Assembly (NCBI RefSeq): GCF_014196915.1 | Contig: NZ_JACIEP010000005.1 | Coordinates: 62,001-126,000 of the forward strand | From: Dysgonomonas hofstadii | GTDB lineage: Bacteria; Bacteroidota; Bacteroidia; Bacteroidales; Dysgonomonadaceae | DNA: 64,000 nt | Direction: 5' to 3' | Part shown: one piece after another, positions 7,739 to 40,702 of the stretch | Layout: every line of letters starts with the position of its first letter | Numbering within the stretch: position 1 is the first letter of the stretch | Notes under the pieces: model-generated | Databases searched by the model: none | What the model was told of the DNA's origin: nothing | Seen by the model: the letters and a program-made list of their open reading frames with translations, nothing else | Position numbers and translations under genes: made by a program

Positions 7739-9862
7739 ATGACAATAAAAGACCTCATTTCATCGGCTTTAAATATTAAAGCATCACAAATAGAAAAGAC
7801 AATCGAACTGCTCGATTCAGGGGCAACCATTCCTTTTATCAGCCGCTACCGTAAAGAAGTAACCGGCGGATTGGATGAAGTTCAGATTGGTGCGATCAAA
7901 GAACAAAATGATAAGTTCAATGAATTGATCAAGCGTAAAGAAACCATTTTGAAATCGATTGAAGAACAGGAAAAACTTACACCTGAATTGAAAACCCGTA
8001 TCGAAAACTGCTGGATATCTTCCGAACTCGAAGATATTTATCTTCCATATAAGCCAAAACGTCAGACTCGTGCCGAGATCGCCCGTAAAAAAGGGTTGGA
8101 AGGACTGGCTAAGCTGATTATGGGGCAGCAGAAGATGGACGTGGAGGAAAAGGCTTTTCCGTATGTAAAAGGAGAGGTGAAAGATGTAAAAGACGCTATT
8201 GCCGGAGCTTGTGACATTATAGCCGAATGGATCAACGAAGACGAATATGCCCGTAACTCTATCCGTAATCTGTTTGAGAGGGAAGCTGTAATAACAGCTA
8301 AAGTGGTAAAAGGAAAAGAGGAAGAAGGAGATAAATACCGCGATTATTTCGACTTCTCCGAGAAGTTGAGTAAAGCTTCATCACATCGTATTCTCGCACT
8401 GCGGAGAGGCGAATCCGAAGGATTTCTCAGGGTTAATATTGCTCCTGACGAAGACCATGCATTAGAGCGCCTCGATAAACGCTTTCTGAAAGGCGATAAC
8501 GATAACGAAGCTACTAATTATGTAGCCGATGCTATCGAAGATTCTTATAAACGACTATTAAAACCTTCGATAGAAACGGAATTTGCGTCATTGTCCAAAG
8601 AAAAAGCCGATGAAGAAGCTATCCGCGTCTTTATTGAGAACCTGCGGCAATTATTGCTGGCGGCTCCATTAGGGCAGAAGCGTGTTTTAGGTATCGATCC
8701 GGGATATCGTACCGGGTGCAAGCTTGTGTGTCTCGATGCGGAAGGAAATCTGATTCATAATGAGACAATTTATCCGCATCCACCGCAAAATGAGACTTCG
8801 AAAGCAGGAAATAAGGTCGTGAAATTGGTTTCCACTTACAATATAGATGCTATCGCTATAGGTAATGGTACGGCGAGTCGCGAAACAGAACGGTTTATCA
8901 CAAACCTGCGTTACGAAAAAGAAGTGAAAGTCTTTGTGGTAAGCGAAAACGGAGCGTCTATTTATTCTGCTTCGAAAATTGCCCGGGAAGAATTTCCCGA
9001 TTATGATGTAACTGTCAGAGGGGCTGTATCTATCGGGCGCCGTTTGATGGACCCATTGGCTGAATTAGTAAAGATCGATCCTAAATCGATTGGAGTAGGG
9101 CAATATCAGCATGATGTAGATCAGGTTAAATTAAAGAAATCACTCGATCTTACCGTTGAAAGTTGTGTGAACCTTGTGGGAGTGAACGTAAATACGGCAA
9201 GTAAACATTTGCTGACATATGTTTCCGGTTTAGGGCCCGTACTTGCACAAAACATAGTAGACTACAGGGCAGAGCATGGTGCATTTAAAACCCGGAAAGA
9301 ACTGATGAAAGTCGCCCGTATGGGGGAAAAAGCCTTTGAACAATGTGCCGGATTCCTTCGTATAGCGGGAGCTGAAAATCCGTTGGATAATTCGGCCGTG
9401 CATCCCGAAAGTTACTATATCGTTCAACAAATGGCTAAGGATTTGAAAACGACAGTGAAAGAACTGATCGAGAACAAAGAACTGAAAAAATCTTTAGATC
9501 TTAATAAATATACAACAGATACGGTCGGATTACCCACTTTGACTGATATCATCGAAGAATTGGACAAGCCGGGGCGCGATCCGCGCAAGGGTATCAAAAT
9601 GTTCGAATTCGATCCGAATATACGTACAATAGATGACCTGCGAGAGGGGATGATTTTGCCGGGTATTGTCACCAATATAACCAATTTCGGCTGTTTCGTT
9701 GATGTAGGCATAAAAGAAAACGGGCTTGTTCATATATCGGAGATCGCCGACCGTTTTGTGTCCGATCCTACCGAAGTGGTTTCTTTGCATCAGCATGTGG
9801 AAGTTAAAGTATTATCCATCGATTCGGGGCGTAAAAGAGTACAGTTGTCGATGAAGAAATAA
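7739..9862 (+). CDS. tex: Tex-family RNA-binding protein (YqgF-HhH-S1)
   Basis: A cytoplasmic nucleic-acid-binding protein of about 707 residues. It has the Tex N-terminal helical region with PFISRYRKEVTGGLDEVQ, a YqgF/RNase H-like domain beginning GIDPGYRTGCK, helix-hairpin-helix motifs around VSGLGPVLAQNIVDYR, and a C-terminal S1 domain (GMILPGIVTNITNFGCFVDV). The family influences transcription and RNA metabolism; the exact role is unsettled. The frame opens at a TTG at 7706 within the repeat; the ATG at 7739 (MTIKDLISSALNI) fits the family N-terminus. A bidirectional terminator follows. Confidence 0.95.
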   Translation: MTIKDLISSALNIKASQIEKTIELLDSGATIPFISRYRKEVTGGLDEVQIGAIKEQNDKFNELIKRKETILKSIEEQEKLTPELKTRIENCWISSELEDIYLPYKPKRQTRAEIARKKGLEGLAKLIMGQQKMDVEEKAFPYVKGEVKDVKDAIAGACDIIAEWINEDEYARNSIRNLFEREAVITAKVVKGKEEEGDKYRDYFDFSEKLSKASSHRILALRRGESEGFLRVNIAPDEDHALERLDKRFLKGDNDNEATNYVADAIEDSYKRLLKPSIETEFASLSKEKADEEAIRVFIENLRQLLLAAPLGQKRVLGIDPGYRTGCKLVCLDAEGNLIHNETIYPHPPQNETSKAGNKVVKLVSTYNIDAIAIGNGTASRETERFITNLRYEKEVKVFVVSENGASIYSASKIAREEFPDYDVTVRGAVSIGRRLMDPLAELVKIDPKSIGVGQYQHDVDQVKLKKSLDLTVESCVNLVGVNVNTASKHLLTYVSGLGPVLAQNIVDYRAEHGAFKTRKELMKVARMGEKAFEQCAGFLRIAGAENPLDNSAVHPESYYIVQQMAKDLKTTVKELIENKELKKSLDLNKYTTDTVGLPTLTDIIEELDKPGRDPRKGIKMFEFDPNIRTIDDLREGMILPGIVTNITNFGCFVDVGIKENGLVHISEIADRFVSDPTEVVSLHQHVEVKVLSIDSGRKRVQLSMKK

Positions 9863-34021: not shown

Positions 34022-36472
34022 TCAACTCTTAAACAGGATGCGGATAAACAACTGAAAATTCCGTCCCTGTTCAGGAATATTCAACCGTCTGTACAGGCTT
34101 AGGTGGTTCATATATCGTGTATCGAATATATTCCGCACCTGCATATTCACATCAACAGCGAGTTTTGAATTGAATTTGTATACGATACCTGCACCCAGGT
34201 CGAACAGGTTTGTGCCTTTTGTATCTTCTTCACCTACGCCCACCCTGTTCTGGTCGGCATACCAGCGGTGCGACACGCTGATTTGATAATGATCTATCTT
34301 TTTACTGCGTATATCATCATTACGGAATTTTACTTCGTTTGTCATTGTAAAGGGAGGTGTGAATGGCAATGGTTCTTTATTATCCAGATTCTTATTCAAT
34401 ACCAGACTACCTTGTGTAGACAGTGCCAGTTTTTTGATCACAGGCCACACCACTTTGTATTCTCCTCCTCCGTAAATCGCTTTTGCCTGGGTATACTGAT
34501 AAGGTTGCTGCTCGTAAAGTTCTACAGCCTGCTCGTCTATAGCCTGTAAATAAATATAATTGGAGTAATAATACACAAACGGATTGAAATATATCTCCAG
34601 CGTATGGTAGCGCCCGTCAAGTCCGGTCACATTCCTGAGCTTATATTCTGTGTCCAGATTAAAAATATAACCATGCTCGGGATCGAGGTCCGGATTCCCT
34701 ATCTCGTAACGGTAAGCGGCATGGTGCAGTCCGTTTGCCGCCAGTTCATTAGCCGATGGCATGCGGTAACTTTTACCTATGTTTAGCTTTAACGTAAAAT
34801 CATCGGCGGCTCTGTATCTTATTCCGATATTTCCCGATATTCCCCCGAAATTGCGATCGACGTCATAAGCCCGTTGCGCATATTGCTGTACAATTCCGGC
34901 ATTATATCCTTCTTCAGTAAGATGTGCGGCAAGCGCATCATCGTAAAAGCCTGTTACATCCATATGGCCAATATCATATCTTACAGCGCCCTCTAAGAGC
35001 CATTTGTTTGATATCTCATAACTGGAAACGTAGGCCAACCCTCCCGATACCTGATTATATCGTGGCAGGAAATATTCAAAGCCGCCGATCCTGTTCTGGC
35101 GGTATTCTGTACTTATACTGAAGCTGTTGCGCCATTTTTCCTGTATTCCCAGATGAAGCCTCGCATTGACAGAATATGTATGTAATTTGAAATCCACAGC
35201 AAGATCATCATCTGTGACGGGCGCCTGCTGGCCTTCGTAGTGTTCATGGAAATGCTCGAATTCTTTGCGGTGATTACTTTGATAAGCTGTATTCACTACA
35301 AGTTTGGTATTGTTGCCCTTTTGCCATTCAGTATTGTTTGTTATCATAAAATGGTTGGATGTGGCATAAGGCAGGCCGATATTCCGGTGCGAGGTGTCTT
35401 CTGTGGCATCATGGTCGTCATCATGGTCATGTTCACCTTCCCCGTGCTCGTGGTCATGCTCATCGTGGTCATGCTCCAGTTCAAATAAGCCATTCTTTTG
35501 GTAGTTGTTGCTTACATTAAAATAGGTGGTCACATTTCTTTCTCTAAATCCGACTGTGGCGGATATACTCTGTTCTTTTCCTGCTGTATTCGGCACCCGT
35601 TTATCGGGTAGGGCAGTCTCTTCGCTCTCATATACAAAGCTTTTGGCCGGAACCCTGTAGTCGGCGTAATCACGGTAGCTGAACGATCCCCGGGCATACC
35701 ATTTATTCTTTTGCCATTCGGCTGTCAATGCTCCGCCTATTTCATCGTTATTAGTAGCTCCCCACAGAGTAGCCTCGCCACTAAAGAAATCTTTGGTATT
35801 CTTAAACTTATATGGTTCTATCTCAATCGTTGTTGTGGTCGACGAACCCAGTAATAGTGCGTTCGGGCCTTTATAGACTGTAGCCGAGAGCATATCGAAC
35901 TGGTTGATTTCCAGTCCGTGATCGGCTCCCCATTGCTGGTTCTGCTGCATGATTCCTCTGTTGATAACGGATACCCTGTCGAACGAGAGTCCCCTTATAA
36001 CAGGTTTCGATACACCGGCCCCTATATTCATCGTTGCCGTTTCCGGTAAGGTGTTCAGTAGTTGTCCGAAAGAGGTAACCGGATCGGGACGTGTTACAAC
36101 AACCTGGGTACGAACGGGATCCTTTGTGGTGAACACCACTTCTTTCAGGGCTATATCCTGTGGCTTCAGGCGGATATCGAGACGGGTTACCAGTTCATCC
36201 AATTCTATGCTGATAGTGTCCTTTTCATAACCGATATGGTCGATGACTAATGTATATTTATCAGGCTTGATATGGCAAAAATTGAAATACCCCGCGCTAT
36301 TAGTAAATGCGCCTATAGTCGAGCCTTGCAGTGTAATTGAAGTCCCCTCCAGTGCTTTGCCCGTTACTTTGTCTATTACTATGCCCGACAGATTACATTC
36401 TGTCTGAGCTATAATCGGAGTTATATACAAGAGGGGCAATAAAAGGAAGGTAAGTAATATATTTCTTAGCAT
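34022..36472 (-). CDS. TonB-dependent receptor with His-rich loop, probable zinc/metal receptor
   Basis: An 816-residue outer-membrane receptor: signal peptide ending IIAQ, a carboxypeptidase-D-like regulatory domain (about 25-103, LSGIVIDKVTGKALEGTSI), a plug (IRGLSFDRVSVINRG) and a barrel. Residues 334-362 form a surface-loop candidate with nine histidines alternating with Asp and Glu (HDHDEHDHEHGEGEHDHDDD), and a second cluster reads EHFHEHYEG. This recalls ZnuD-type zinc receptors. It is 35 bp downstream of a Fur/Zur-family repressor gene, so cotranscribed with it, which supports metal control. The substrate is inferred, not shown. Confidence 0.9.
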   Translation of the reverse strand: MLRNILLTFLLLPLLYITPIIAQTECNLSGIVIDKVTGKALEGTSITLQGSTIGAFTNSAGYFNFCHIKPDKYTLVIDHIGYEKDTISIELDELVTRLDIRLKPQDIALKEVVFTTKDPVRTQVVVTRPDPVTSFGQLLNTLPETATMNIGAGVSKPVIRGLSFDRVSVINRGIMQQNQQWGADHGLEINQFDMLSATVYKGPNALLLGSSTTTTIEIEPYKFKNTKDFFSGEATLWGATNNDEIGGALTAEWQKNKWYARGSFSYRDYADYRVPAKSFVYESEETALPDKRVPNTAGKEQSISATVGFRERNVTTYFNVSNNYQKNGLFELEHDHDEHDHEHGEGEHDHDDDHDATEDTSHRNIGLPYATSNHFMITNNTEWQKGNNTKLVVNTAYQSNHRKEFEHFHEHYEGQQAPVTDDDLAVDFKLHTYSVNARLHLGIQEKWRNSFSISTEYRQNRIGGFEYFLPRYNQVSGGLAYVSSYEISNKWLLEGAVRYDIGHMDVTGFYDDALAAHLTEEGYNAGIVQQYAQRAYDVDRNFGGISGNIGIRYRAADDFTLKLNIGKSYRMPSANELAANGLHHAAYRYEIGNPDLDPEHGYIFNLDTEYKLRNVTGLDGRYHTLEIYFNPFVYYYSNYIYLQAIDEQAVELYEQQPYQYTQAKAIYGGGEYKVVWPVIKKLALSTQGSLVLNKNLDNKEPLPFTPPFTMTNEVKFRNDDIRSKKIDHYQISVSHRWYADQNRVGVGEEDTKGTNLFDLGAGIVYKFNSKLAVDVNMQVRNIFDTRYMNHLSLYRRLNIPEQGRNFQLFIRILFKS

Positions 36473-36507
36473 TTTCTTTTACAAATATGTGGTTATAAAT
36501 AAGGATA

Positions 36508-36909
36508 TTATTCTTTACAATTCGGACAGGTGCCTTCCAGCAAGACTTCTACCGATTCTACCGAAAAGCCCTCAGGCAGATGGGGCGTCTCGGGCAATTG
36601 GGTCTCGATACAGGTTACACTGTCGCATCTTATACAGTGGAAATGGGCATGATCTCCTTTAGGAAGTACTTCTTTATTCAGAGCATATTTCACAGTAGAG
36701 TCCTGCAATACGACCCGGTGAATAATATTATTCTCTTCCAGCGTTTTCAGTGACCGGTAAAAAGTAACCCTGTCGAAAAGGTCTGGCATGGCCTGCTTTA
36801 TTTCATTTTCGGACAAGGCTGAATCGATATTCAGTAATTCGTTGATTATAAACTTGCGGCAACCTGTATTCTTCAGGTCATGATGTTTTAATATTTGTTC
36901 GGCATTCAT
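36508..36909 (-). CDS. Fur-family metalloregulator, probably Zur-like
   Basis: A 133-residue repressor with the winged-helix domain (NEIKQAMPDLFDRVTFYRSLKTLEENNI) and dimerisation domain. HAHFHC with CIRC (Cys92, Cys95) and CPNC (Cys128, Cys131) provide the structural zinc site and part of a sensory site. It is the first gene of a two-gene unit with the His-rich receptor, so it probably regulates that receptor and itself. Fur, Zur or PerR type cannot be fixed from sequence; the partner favours zinc. Confidence 0.88.
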   Translation of the reverse strand: MNAEQILKHHDLKNTGCRKFIINELLNIDSALSENEIKQAMPDLFDRVTFYRSLKTLEENNIIHRVVLQDSTVKYALNKEVLPKGDHAHFHCIRCDSVTCIETQLPETPHLPEGFSVESVEVLLEGTCPNCKE

Positions 36910-38557: not shown

Positions 38558-38601
38558 AAATCTCACAGTACAGAGAAAGAACTGTTTTAATCTTTTACTG
38601 G

Positions 38602-38630
38602 CACGGATTTACAATCCGTGTTTTTTTTTT
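38602..38630 (+). terminator. Terminator of mgtE
   Basis: Stem CACGGATT/AATCCGTG (38602-38609 with 38613-38620), loop TAC, then ten T. Confidence 0.95.
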
Positions 38631-38722
38631 GATAGTACGCATGAGGGCGCGCACTAAGGCTTGAAAAATTGAGAATAAAAATATTTAATATAGTTTTTTT
38701 ATTCTTATCTCTAAAAAATGAT

Positions 38723-38730
38723 TAATTTTG
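38723..38730 (+). promoter_or_regulatory. Putative -7 promoter box ahead of the cobalamin riboswitch
   Basis: TAATTTTG immediately upstream of the riboswitch RNA; a TACATTTG at 38984-38991 downstream of it is a possible second site. Confidence 0.5.
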
Positions 38731-38734
38731 TCGG

Positions 38735-38915
38735 CGCATTGGTACGGCTACGCCATCCGGTTGTAGTTGTAAAAGGGAATCAGGTGAAAATCCTGAACAG
38801 GCCCCGCTGCTGTAAGCATCAATGAAGTCTTCGGGCAATACTCAAAAACCACTGTTCAGAAAAGAATGGGAAGGGCGTTCCGAAGATGATGTAAGTCAGA
38901 AGACCTGCCATGCGG
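38735..38915 (+). ncRNA. Cobalamin (adenosylcobalamin-class) riboswitch
   Basis: The conserved core is readable: AAAGGGAATCAGGTGAAAAT, CCTGAACAGGCCCCGCTGCT and GTAA near 38774-38818, and the B12 box GTAAGTCAGAAGACCTGCCA at 38891-38910. This order and spacing are diagnostic of the cobalamin family. A hairpin at 38922-38953 (TTCAAGCTTT with AAAGCTTTGAA) follows and may be part of the expression platform; it has no T run, so control at translation or by another mechanism is possible. The next gene on this strand begins at 39072. Boundaries are approximate. Confidence 0.94.
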
Positions 38916-39071
38916 AAAATATTTCAAGCTTTCGAGGAATAAAAGCTTTGAAACCAAATGGCATTTATAGAATTTTCTGTTCTTACATTTGATTTCTACT
39001 TCTCGTATTTGAAATGTTTAGTTTTAATCCGGATAAGTAATTTATTGTATAATATTAAAACTACATTTAAA

Positions 39072-40649
39072 ATGAAAAAGATTTTTGTGATACTTGCATT
39101 AGCGGTTTTCACATTTGCATGTGCTGATGACGATTACGTTGCGGACATTAAAGTAGATTCGTCCGAGTTATATTTCCTGAATGAAGGAGGAACCAAGACA
39201 TTGGATATCGCATCCAATACGTCGTGGAGCGTAACATCGGACCAATCGTGGGTAAAAGTATCGGAAAGCCAGGGAGTAAATAGTAACAGCCTTCTGATAG
39301 AAGTAGAGCCTAATAGTGCCGGAGGTGAACGGAATGCAGTCATTACTATAAAGAACATTTTTGGACAGGAGGTAAAAAAAGCAATAAAAGTAATACAAGG
39401 TAATACCGGAGCAAGTGCAACGCAACTTAGCTATAGTTATCAGGCTTCTACTCAGGGGTTTACTGTTAATATAGATGGAAACTGGACACTAGAGAAAACA
39501 GGAGACTGGTTCGTCCTTTCTGCAGAATCGGGTAAAGGAAATACGATAGTAGATGTGACTGTGAAGCCAAATAACGGCGAAGGTACAAGATCCGGTAAAA
39601 TAGTTCTTAAAGGCGAGGGTGTTAATGATATAGAGATAAATGTGCAGCAGGCTAAGTTGCCCGAATTGGTTGGTTTGTATATTTTAAGCGAAGGTAATTG
39701 GAATAGTAGCCAGTCTGATCTGGCATATTATGATTATACTACGGGGACAACGACAAAGAAATTTTACAAAGCTCAGAATGGCGCAACATTAGGCGACTTG
39801 GGCAATGACCTTGCCATATACGGAGGTAAGATGTATTGTATTGTTTCGGGAGCAAGCGTTGCTGCCGGGGGAGGACGTATCGAAATAATAGATATTGAAA
39901 CCGGGAAATCGCAGGAAAAAATCCCATTTAAAGATGCTCTTGGCGGAGCAGATATGCCGAGAAAAATGGCATTTTATAAAGACAAGGTATATATTACAGG
40001 CTATTCGGGTATAATTGCCCGGCTCGACACAGCTTCTCTGGCCATAGATGGCATAGTCTCCCTTAGCGGTACATATACTGAAGGCATCGCTCAATATGGA
40101 GGTAAATTATATGCATGTAATTCGGGCTATGGCAGTGGTAATACCATATCGGTAGTTGATATTGCTTCCTTTAAAGAAACAAAGGTGATCAGTGTTCCTC
40201 AAAATCCTTATGCTATAAAAGCATCGTCCACCGGAAATATTTATTTCAATACCGCCGATTTGTCATGGTCGACAGGTGCTCCTGCAAATTTACATTTACT
40301 GGATGCTAAAACAGAGACCGTTACAAAAACTTTTGATATAGAAACTGTAGATTTTGCAGTGAATGATAGTTATATATACTCTGTTTTTAATTATACCGAT
40401 TGGAGTACTTTCGAAACCATCGATTATAGTTATAAAATAAATCAGTCTTCAAATGAAGTGGCTGAATTTACAACTCAGATACCATCTTATTTTATGGTAT
40501 ATAAAGTAAATGTAAATCCATATAACGGAGATGTATATATGGGAGGCCAGGGAAATGATGTTGCTGTATTTGGAGCAGATGGTTCCCTGAAAACAAAGAT
40601 AAGTTCCGGAACAGGTTATACAAGCACGATTGTGCCTGTCTATAGATAA
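39072..40649 (+). CDS. BACON/beta-propeller lipoprotein under B12 control (BtuG-like)
   Basis: A 525-residue lipoprotein (lipobox TFAC, Cys17). Residues about 25-108 and 113-190 are two BACON domains (SSELYFLNEGGTKTLDI; GNWTLEKTGDWFVLS). From about 198 (LVGLYILSEGNWNSSQSDL) to the end is a repeated-blade beta-propeller of the DUF5074/YncE type. BtuG proteins of Bacteroides are propeller lipoproteins that bind cobalamin on BtuB; the propeller, lipid anchor and upstream cobalamin riboswitch fit this, though BtuB is not adjacent and BACON fusion is unusual to me. The frame extends to 38958, but the ATG at 39072 starts a perfect lipoprotein signal. Confidence 0.85.
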   Translation: MKKIFVILALAVFTFACADDDYVADIKVDSSELYFLNEGGTKTLDIASNTSWSVTSDQSWVKVSESQGVNSNSLLIEVEPNSAGGERNAVITIKNIFGQEVKKAIKVIQGNTGASATQLSYSYQASTQGFTVNIDGNWTLEKTGDWFVLSAESGKGNTIVDVTVKPNNGEGTRSGKIVLKGEGVNDIEINVQQAKLPELVGLYILSEGNWNSSQSDLAYYDYTTGTTTKKFYKAQNGATLGDLGNDLAIYGGKMYCIVSGASVAAGGGRIEIIDIETGKSQEKIPFKDALGGADMPRKMAFYKDKVYITGYSGIIARLDTASLAIDGIVSLSGTYTEGIAQYGGKLYACNSGYGSGNTISVVDIASFKETKVISVPQNPYAIKASSTGNIYFNTADLSWSTGAPANLHLLDAKTETVTKTFDIETVDFAVNDSYIYSVFNYTDWSTFETIDYSYKINQSSNEVAEFTTQIPSYFMVYKVNVNPYNGDVYMGGQGNDVAVFGADGSLKTKISSGTGYTSTIVPVYR

Positions 40650-40671: not shown

Positions 40672-40702
40672 AAAAAGAGCTGTCGTGATGACAGCTCTTT
40701 TT
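40672..40702. terminator. Bidirectional terminator between the BtuG-like gene and gpmA
   Basis: Perfect 13-bp stem (40672-40684 with 40690-40702), loop GTGAT, A run on one side and T run on the other. Confidence 0.93.

Follow-up and report, generated by a model that had tools for sequence, protein, structure and literature searches.

Introduction

BtuG has been described as the lid of the transporter BtuB, and its gene is found next to btuB in nearly every case; according to the part of PMC6143338 drawn on here, 106 of 112 BtuG homologues lie in btuB operons. What, then, is the role of a BtuG-type protein whose gene stands behind a cobalamin (B12) riboswitch of its own with no btuB beside it? 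The question is raised by a locus of Dysgonomonas hofstadii, contained in a window of 64,000 nucleotides (the whole stretch of DNA analysed; contig NZ_JACIEP010000005.1, positions 62,001 to 126,000), where a riboswitch precedes a single gene for a lipoprotein of 525 residues. This protein is best read as a third, accessory BtuG, one of a clade in which the propeller is carried on a stalk, and not as the lid of a dedicated BtuB. It probably serves as a surface catcher of corrinoids that acts in trans. Such a stalked, often stand-alone clade would separate capture from transport.

The riboswitch and the lipoprotein

The riboswitch that the initial annotation had read from the letters is confirmed by a full-length match to RF00174 (98.7 bits against a cut-off of 31.5, E 2e-23, model positions 1-189), the sole Rfam match in the window at the gathering threshold. 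Sixteen bases of the hairpin directly 3' of the aptamer recur as exact copies at four distinct places among the collected loci, two of them in this genome; this hairpin is a putative kissing-loop partner.

The mechanical open reading frame begins at 38958, and the lipoprotein signal begins at the ATG at 39072, which yields the 525 residues originally proposed (Table 1). The signal carries residues of the kind expected of an exported BtuG: Cys17, invariant in the alignments of relatives, is followed by ADDD, resembling a surface-export signal. The signal, this cysteine and the acidic stretch after it suggest a lipid-anchored protein on the outer face of the outer membrane.

The predicted domain order of two N-terminal BACON domains and a BtuG-like propeller also held. 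BACON (PF13004) matches in two stretches with 59.9 bits against a cut-off of 25, and residues 120-194, in the second domain, match 3zmr (E 0.001). DUF5074 matches residues 201-512 with 55.7 bits against 27.2. A seven-bladed propeller of BtuG type is indicated by sequence, by matches to solved structures and by comparison of the predicted model, which gave structural Z scores of 33.9-36.8 against BtuG2 and BtuG3; confidence in the model is poor at residues 69-80 and 94-149, ahead of the propeller. About 180 residues separate the lipid-bearing Cys from the propeller.

A clade of stalked BtuGs

Relatives were sought in 61 genomes, in 393 of the order, 395 of the phylum and 101 of the family (the own genome being in each), and in 56 further loci; being selected by similarity to the window protein, they do not form a random sample. 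In a tree of the 107 distinct propellers kept from the fetched stretches, the window protein falls in a group of 18 (support 99/98), which had 11 members in an earlier tree of 61 (100/100). The spacing between lipid Cys and propeller is 93 residues or more in all 17 clade members in which it could be called (median 106, maximum 282); among non-clade proteins the median is 20.5 and 7 of 82 reach 90 or more.

The stalks themselves are diverse. A joint scan of 40 proteins, clade and others unsplit, placed BACON over the cut-off in nine and DUF4988 in six. Single Pfam scans within the clade found one BACON in L115, two in L108 and DUF4988 in L122, with DUF4988 in L126 reaching only a score below the cut-off and no named N-terminal domain in L088; the N-termini of L041, L042 and L089 look coil-like by eye. 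Because some sister proteins carry DUF4988-type N-termini instead, BACON is not an essential part. Outside the clade, seven BtuGs (L056, L059, L061, L143, L144, L150 and L152) have stalks of 112-223 residues and belong to btuB-btuG-btuF operons; they lie elsewhere in the tree, which points to more than one gain of a stalk.

Gene context sets the clade apart as well. Among members with an upstream gene in their stretch (2 clade and 5 other members being left out), btuB is that next gene in 0 of 16 clade members versus 70 of 84 others. Eight of the 18 are preceded by a riboswitch of their own, with an Rfam-confirmed aptamer, in a stretch that lacks btuB: the window gene, L042, L088, L089, L108, L115, L119 (whose contig ends about 480 bases past the gene) and L126. 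In L100 the stalked BtuG gene and the btuB that follows it each have a riboswitch before them. L041 and L110 are situated 4.6 and 5.2 kb along a btuB-btuG operon, and in L125 one gene separates the riboswitch, 2.4 kb upstream, from the stalked BtuG gene. A preceding riboswitch was not confirmed for L109, L111, L112, L122, L127 and L128, several of them close to a contig end; four of these (L109, L111, L112 and L127) have other accessory genes of B12 loci around them. The stand-alone arrangement is not unique to the clade, as it also occurs elsewhere (e.g. L155).

Two further observations concern the neighbours of these genes. In L110 a CobA/CobO/BtuR adenosyltransferase gene (8615-9136) directly follows the stalked BtuG of the btuB operon. 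A gene for a DUF6580 membrane protein recurs beside BtuG genes of B12 loci: it follows the stalked BtuG in L042 (5444-6022) and is found in L041 (10139-10732), L112 (4888-5466), L133, L137, L139, L145, L147 and L160, the assignment being by Pfam for L042 and L139 and by BLAST likeness for the others. A literature search on DUF6580 found no paper; its product is a candidate inner-membrane part of corrinoid transport.

B12 genes elsewhere in the genome

The absence of an adjoining btuB, part of the initial annotation, was confirmed; BtuG as a BtuB lid would be encoded next to btuB, and that is not the case in the window. A search of the whole genome (5.04 Mb in 44 contigs) with one BtuB gave matches at E 1e-50 or better in two places, neither on the contig of the window, and each of these btuB genes, as had been suggested for checking, has an RF00174 riboswitch before it, with btuG directly after. 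The window protein is therefore not the only B12 capture system of the cell, since two btuB-btuG loci exist elsewhere. BtuB relatives were likewise present in 15 of 15 clade genomes searched, including this one, the match in G849 and G875 being a fragment at a contig end; that search covered the clade except for the genomes of L125, L127 and L128, of which L127 has btuB in its own stretch.

Five RF00174 riboswitches were found in the genome, in front of an anaerobic ribonucleotide reductase gene, pyruvate formate-lyase-like and radical SAM genes, btuB-btuG-btuF, btuB-btuG with further lipoproteins, and the window gene. The first two, both on contig C4, are of interest in themselves (L006, 12163-15033, and L007, 13376-16817), the pyruvate formate-lyase-like pair being an unusual target of B12 control; L110 and L112 also have riboswitch motif matches before genes similar to anaerobic ribonucleotide reductase. 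The btuB-btuG locus further encodes a DUF4988-DUF5074 protein (L008, 4821-6704) with 221.8 bits to DUF5074, far above the BtuGs, and hence another type of accessory propeller.

Profile searches of the genome gave no match to PF08267 (the N-terminal domain of MetE) or PF01888 (CbiD). The CobS profile matched, and genes for CobU, a CobT-type phosphoribosyltransferase and a histidine phosphatase adjoin the CobS gene. Near the btuB-btuG-btuF locus is a gene whose start resembles metH by eye. Judged from this handful of profiles, the cell appears to scavenge corrinoids and to be able to rebuild the nucleotide loop.

Clade-wide changes in the propeller

Two stretches of the propeller differ throughout the clade. 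That between N482 and F500 is 17-18 residues long in 18 of 18 members, against a median of 22 in 89 others and 22 in BtuG1 and BtuG2; the missing columns contain Tyr335 of BtuG2. The Y255-I273 stretch, in blade 2, has a median length of 16.5 residues (range 11-21) in the clade and is shorter in the others (median 11). The pocket of BtuG2 is given, in the portion of PMC10404256 used, as Trp194, Tyr239, Trp272, Tyr316 and Tyr335, the last of which bonds the adenosyl group of adenosylcobalamin. An alignment by eye puts Trp194 near Tyr353 and Tyr316 near Tyr477 of the window protein, and Tyr239 and Trp272 could not be placed. BtuG1, itself a B12 binder, also does without some of these residues. 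A preference for another corrinoid is possible in view of the loop changes.

Proposed function and alternatives

The following pathway is envisaged. When intracellular corrinoid is low, the riboswitch would permit expression of the single gene, which B12 would repress, as in other members of this riboswitch family. The lipid anchor would hold the product at the cell surface. There the two-BACON stalk, evident from the sequence, carries the BtuG-type propeller, which the model shows as well. The propeller, by its likeness to BtuG1, would bind a corrinoid; the stalk could let it reach past the lids of transporters, and the cargo might then pass to a BtuBG system from one of the two btuB-btuG loci. 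A precedent exists in experiments reported in the part of PMC6143338 considered, in which B12-loaded BtuG2 in the supernatant rescued a btuG2 mutant, though not cells without transport genes. The initial annotation had offered a free-standing surface catcher as one option: this gains weight because the riboswitch unit without btuB recurs in seven other genomes (labelled Dysgonamonadaceae, Prevotellaceae and Mediterranea, among others), and the two btuB-btuG loci limit it, in that the protein is not a sole capture system.

Several points weigh against this assignment. The structural Z score against an archaeal surface-layer propeller is 33.1, a small margin below the BtuG values. The clade is without the adenosyl-touching loop of BtuG2, for which reason its corrinoid binding may be weaker or different. 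Many of the 21 shared positions differ in B12-binding BtuG2, so their conservation is no proof of a ligand site. The seven operon BtuGs make a stalk compatible with the lid role, and a stalk alone therefore does not exclude pairing with BtuB. Finally, co-culture results in the same part of PMC6143338 suggest that BtuG2 acts mainly in cis, on its own cell.

The stalked operon BtuGs, and the presence of two BtuBs in the genome, would suit an ordinary BtuBG whose parts are encoded apart, in which the window protein takes the place of the resident BtuG on either BtuB. This is unlikely: each btuB gene has btuG directly behind it, the clade has loop changes and a place in the tree of its own, and the short, hinge-like linker of BtuB2G2 (PMC10404256, as far as consulted) stands against about 180 residues here. 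It is quite unlikely that the propeller binds some other cargo relevant when B12 is scarce, such as a further tetrapyrrole, a metal chelate or a corrinoid-protein complex; the loss of the blade-7 loop and the longer blade-2 stretch would suit such a ligand, but every one of the closest relatives of solved structure contains or binds cobalamin, and several clade members stand in btuB operons (L041 and L110, the latter with the CobA/BtuR gene behind it). A relic without present use, whether a stray copy of an operon since lost or the product of recent transfer, is scarcely credible with reading frame, signal and riboswitch all intact and the unit present in the seven other genomes, even though no other same-genus genome among the 101 of the family has a match at E 1e-38, and the region varies: in the 15 same-genus genomes with a fetched gpmA flank, gpmA has no mgtE within 1.5 kb.

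The reading as an accessory catcher in trans admits a wider, speculative and on balance doubtful form. The clade could be a patchily distributed, separate class of BtuG on exchangeable stalks, often in a riboswitch unit of its own and acting away from BtuB, whose altered pockets would catch other corrinoid forms or cargo held by the capture proteins of neighbouring cells, an arm of B12 piracy that loads BtuBG in trans. The clade would make it testable how accessory surface proteins load BtuBG, a question posed as open in the discussion of PMC10404256, and would tie part of DUF5074, listed in Pfam as of function unknown, to corrinoid capture.

Gene neighbourhood

The riboswitch and the lipoprotein gene form a single-gene unit between mgtE upstream and the convergent gpmA downstream. 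The hairpin behind mgtE is one of 2 sites marked by the terminator scan, where shuffled sequence would give 1.7, which makes it weak by number. Farther upstream (34022-36472) lies a TonB-dependent receptor gene with a His/Asp/Glu-rich insert, adjoined by a FUR-family regulator gene (together 34022-36909). In the own-genome comparison this receptor matched itself only and not the BtuBs of the genome; the two genes are presumably a metal uptake pair.

Table 1. Features of the riboswitch-lipoprotein unit and its borders (window positions)
Feature	Position	Strand	Basis
Terminator-like hairpin with T-run behind mgtE, upstream of the unit	38600..38632	+	Terminator scan
Cobalamin riboswitch aptamer (RF00174)	38722..38926	+	Rfam profile match
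Hairpin directly 3' of the aptamer	38926..38951	+	Sequence comparison
Lipoprotein gene, stalked BtuG-type propeller, 525 residues	39072..40649	+	Sequence, Pfam, comparison with solved structures
Signal peptide with putative lipid-anchor Cys17	39072..39122	+	Sequence
First BACON domain, residues about 26-109	39147..39398	+	Pfam and structure-based match
Second BACON domain, residues about 115-194	39414..39653	+	Pfam second stretch and 3zmr match
BtuG-type beta-propeller, residues 197-525	39660..40646	+	Solved-structure matches, alignment, predicted model
Hairpin between the lipoprotein gene and convergent gpmA	about 40675..40699	.	Read by eye; absent from the scanner's list

Comparison with known systems

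Proteins of this kind have been described before; no description of the stalked, often stand-alone clade turned up in the literature searched. Searches that paired BACON with cobalamin or with BtuG returned nothing relevant, and BACON is not mentioned in the main text, so far as it was covered, of PMC6143338, PMC8941943, PMC10404256 or PMC12751083.

BtuG1 of B. thetaiotaomicron, which is BtuGH (BT1490; PDB 8blw, 8ptd, 8ptf), adjoins btuB1 and has a C-terminal BtuH domain, as set out in the part of PMC10404256 used here; the window protein differs in its N-terminal BACON stalk and in having no BtuH domain, no adjoining btuB and no blade-7 loop. Its identity to BtuG2 (BT1954) and BtuG3 (BT2095) is 22-24%, and these have a short linker, which in BtuB2G2 acts as the hinge mentioned above, a lid role on BtuB and the Tyr335 loop. 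The seven operon BtuGs outside the clade share the propeller on a stalk, with no BACON found in L056 or L150 by single Pfam scans, but they directly follow btuB and belong to another part of the tree. L155 resembles the window gene in having a riboswitch in front and no btuB in its stretch, and differs in its short linker and place in the tree. In its proposed role the window protein is like BtuH, BtuJ and BtuK1, accessory B12-binding lipoproteins that, from the portions of PMC8941943 and PMC12751083 available, are proposed to provide extra capture at the surface without a stable complex with BtuB.
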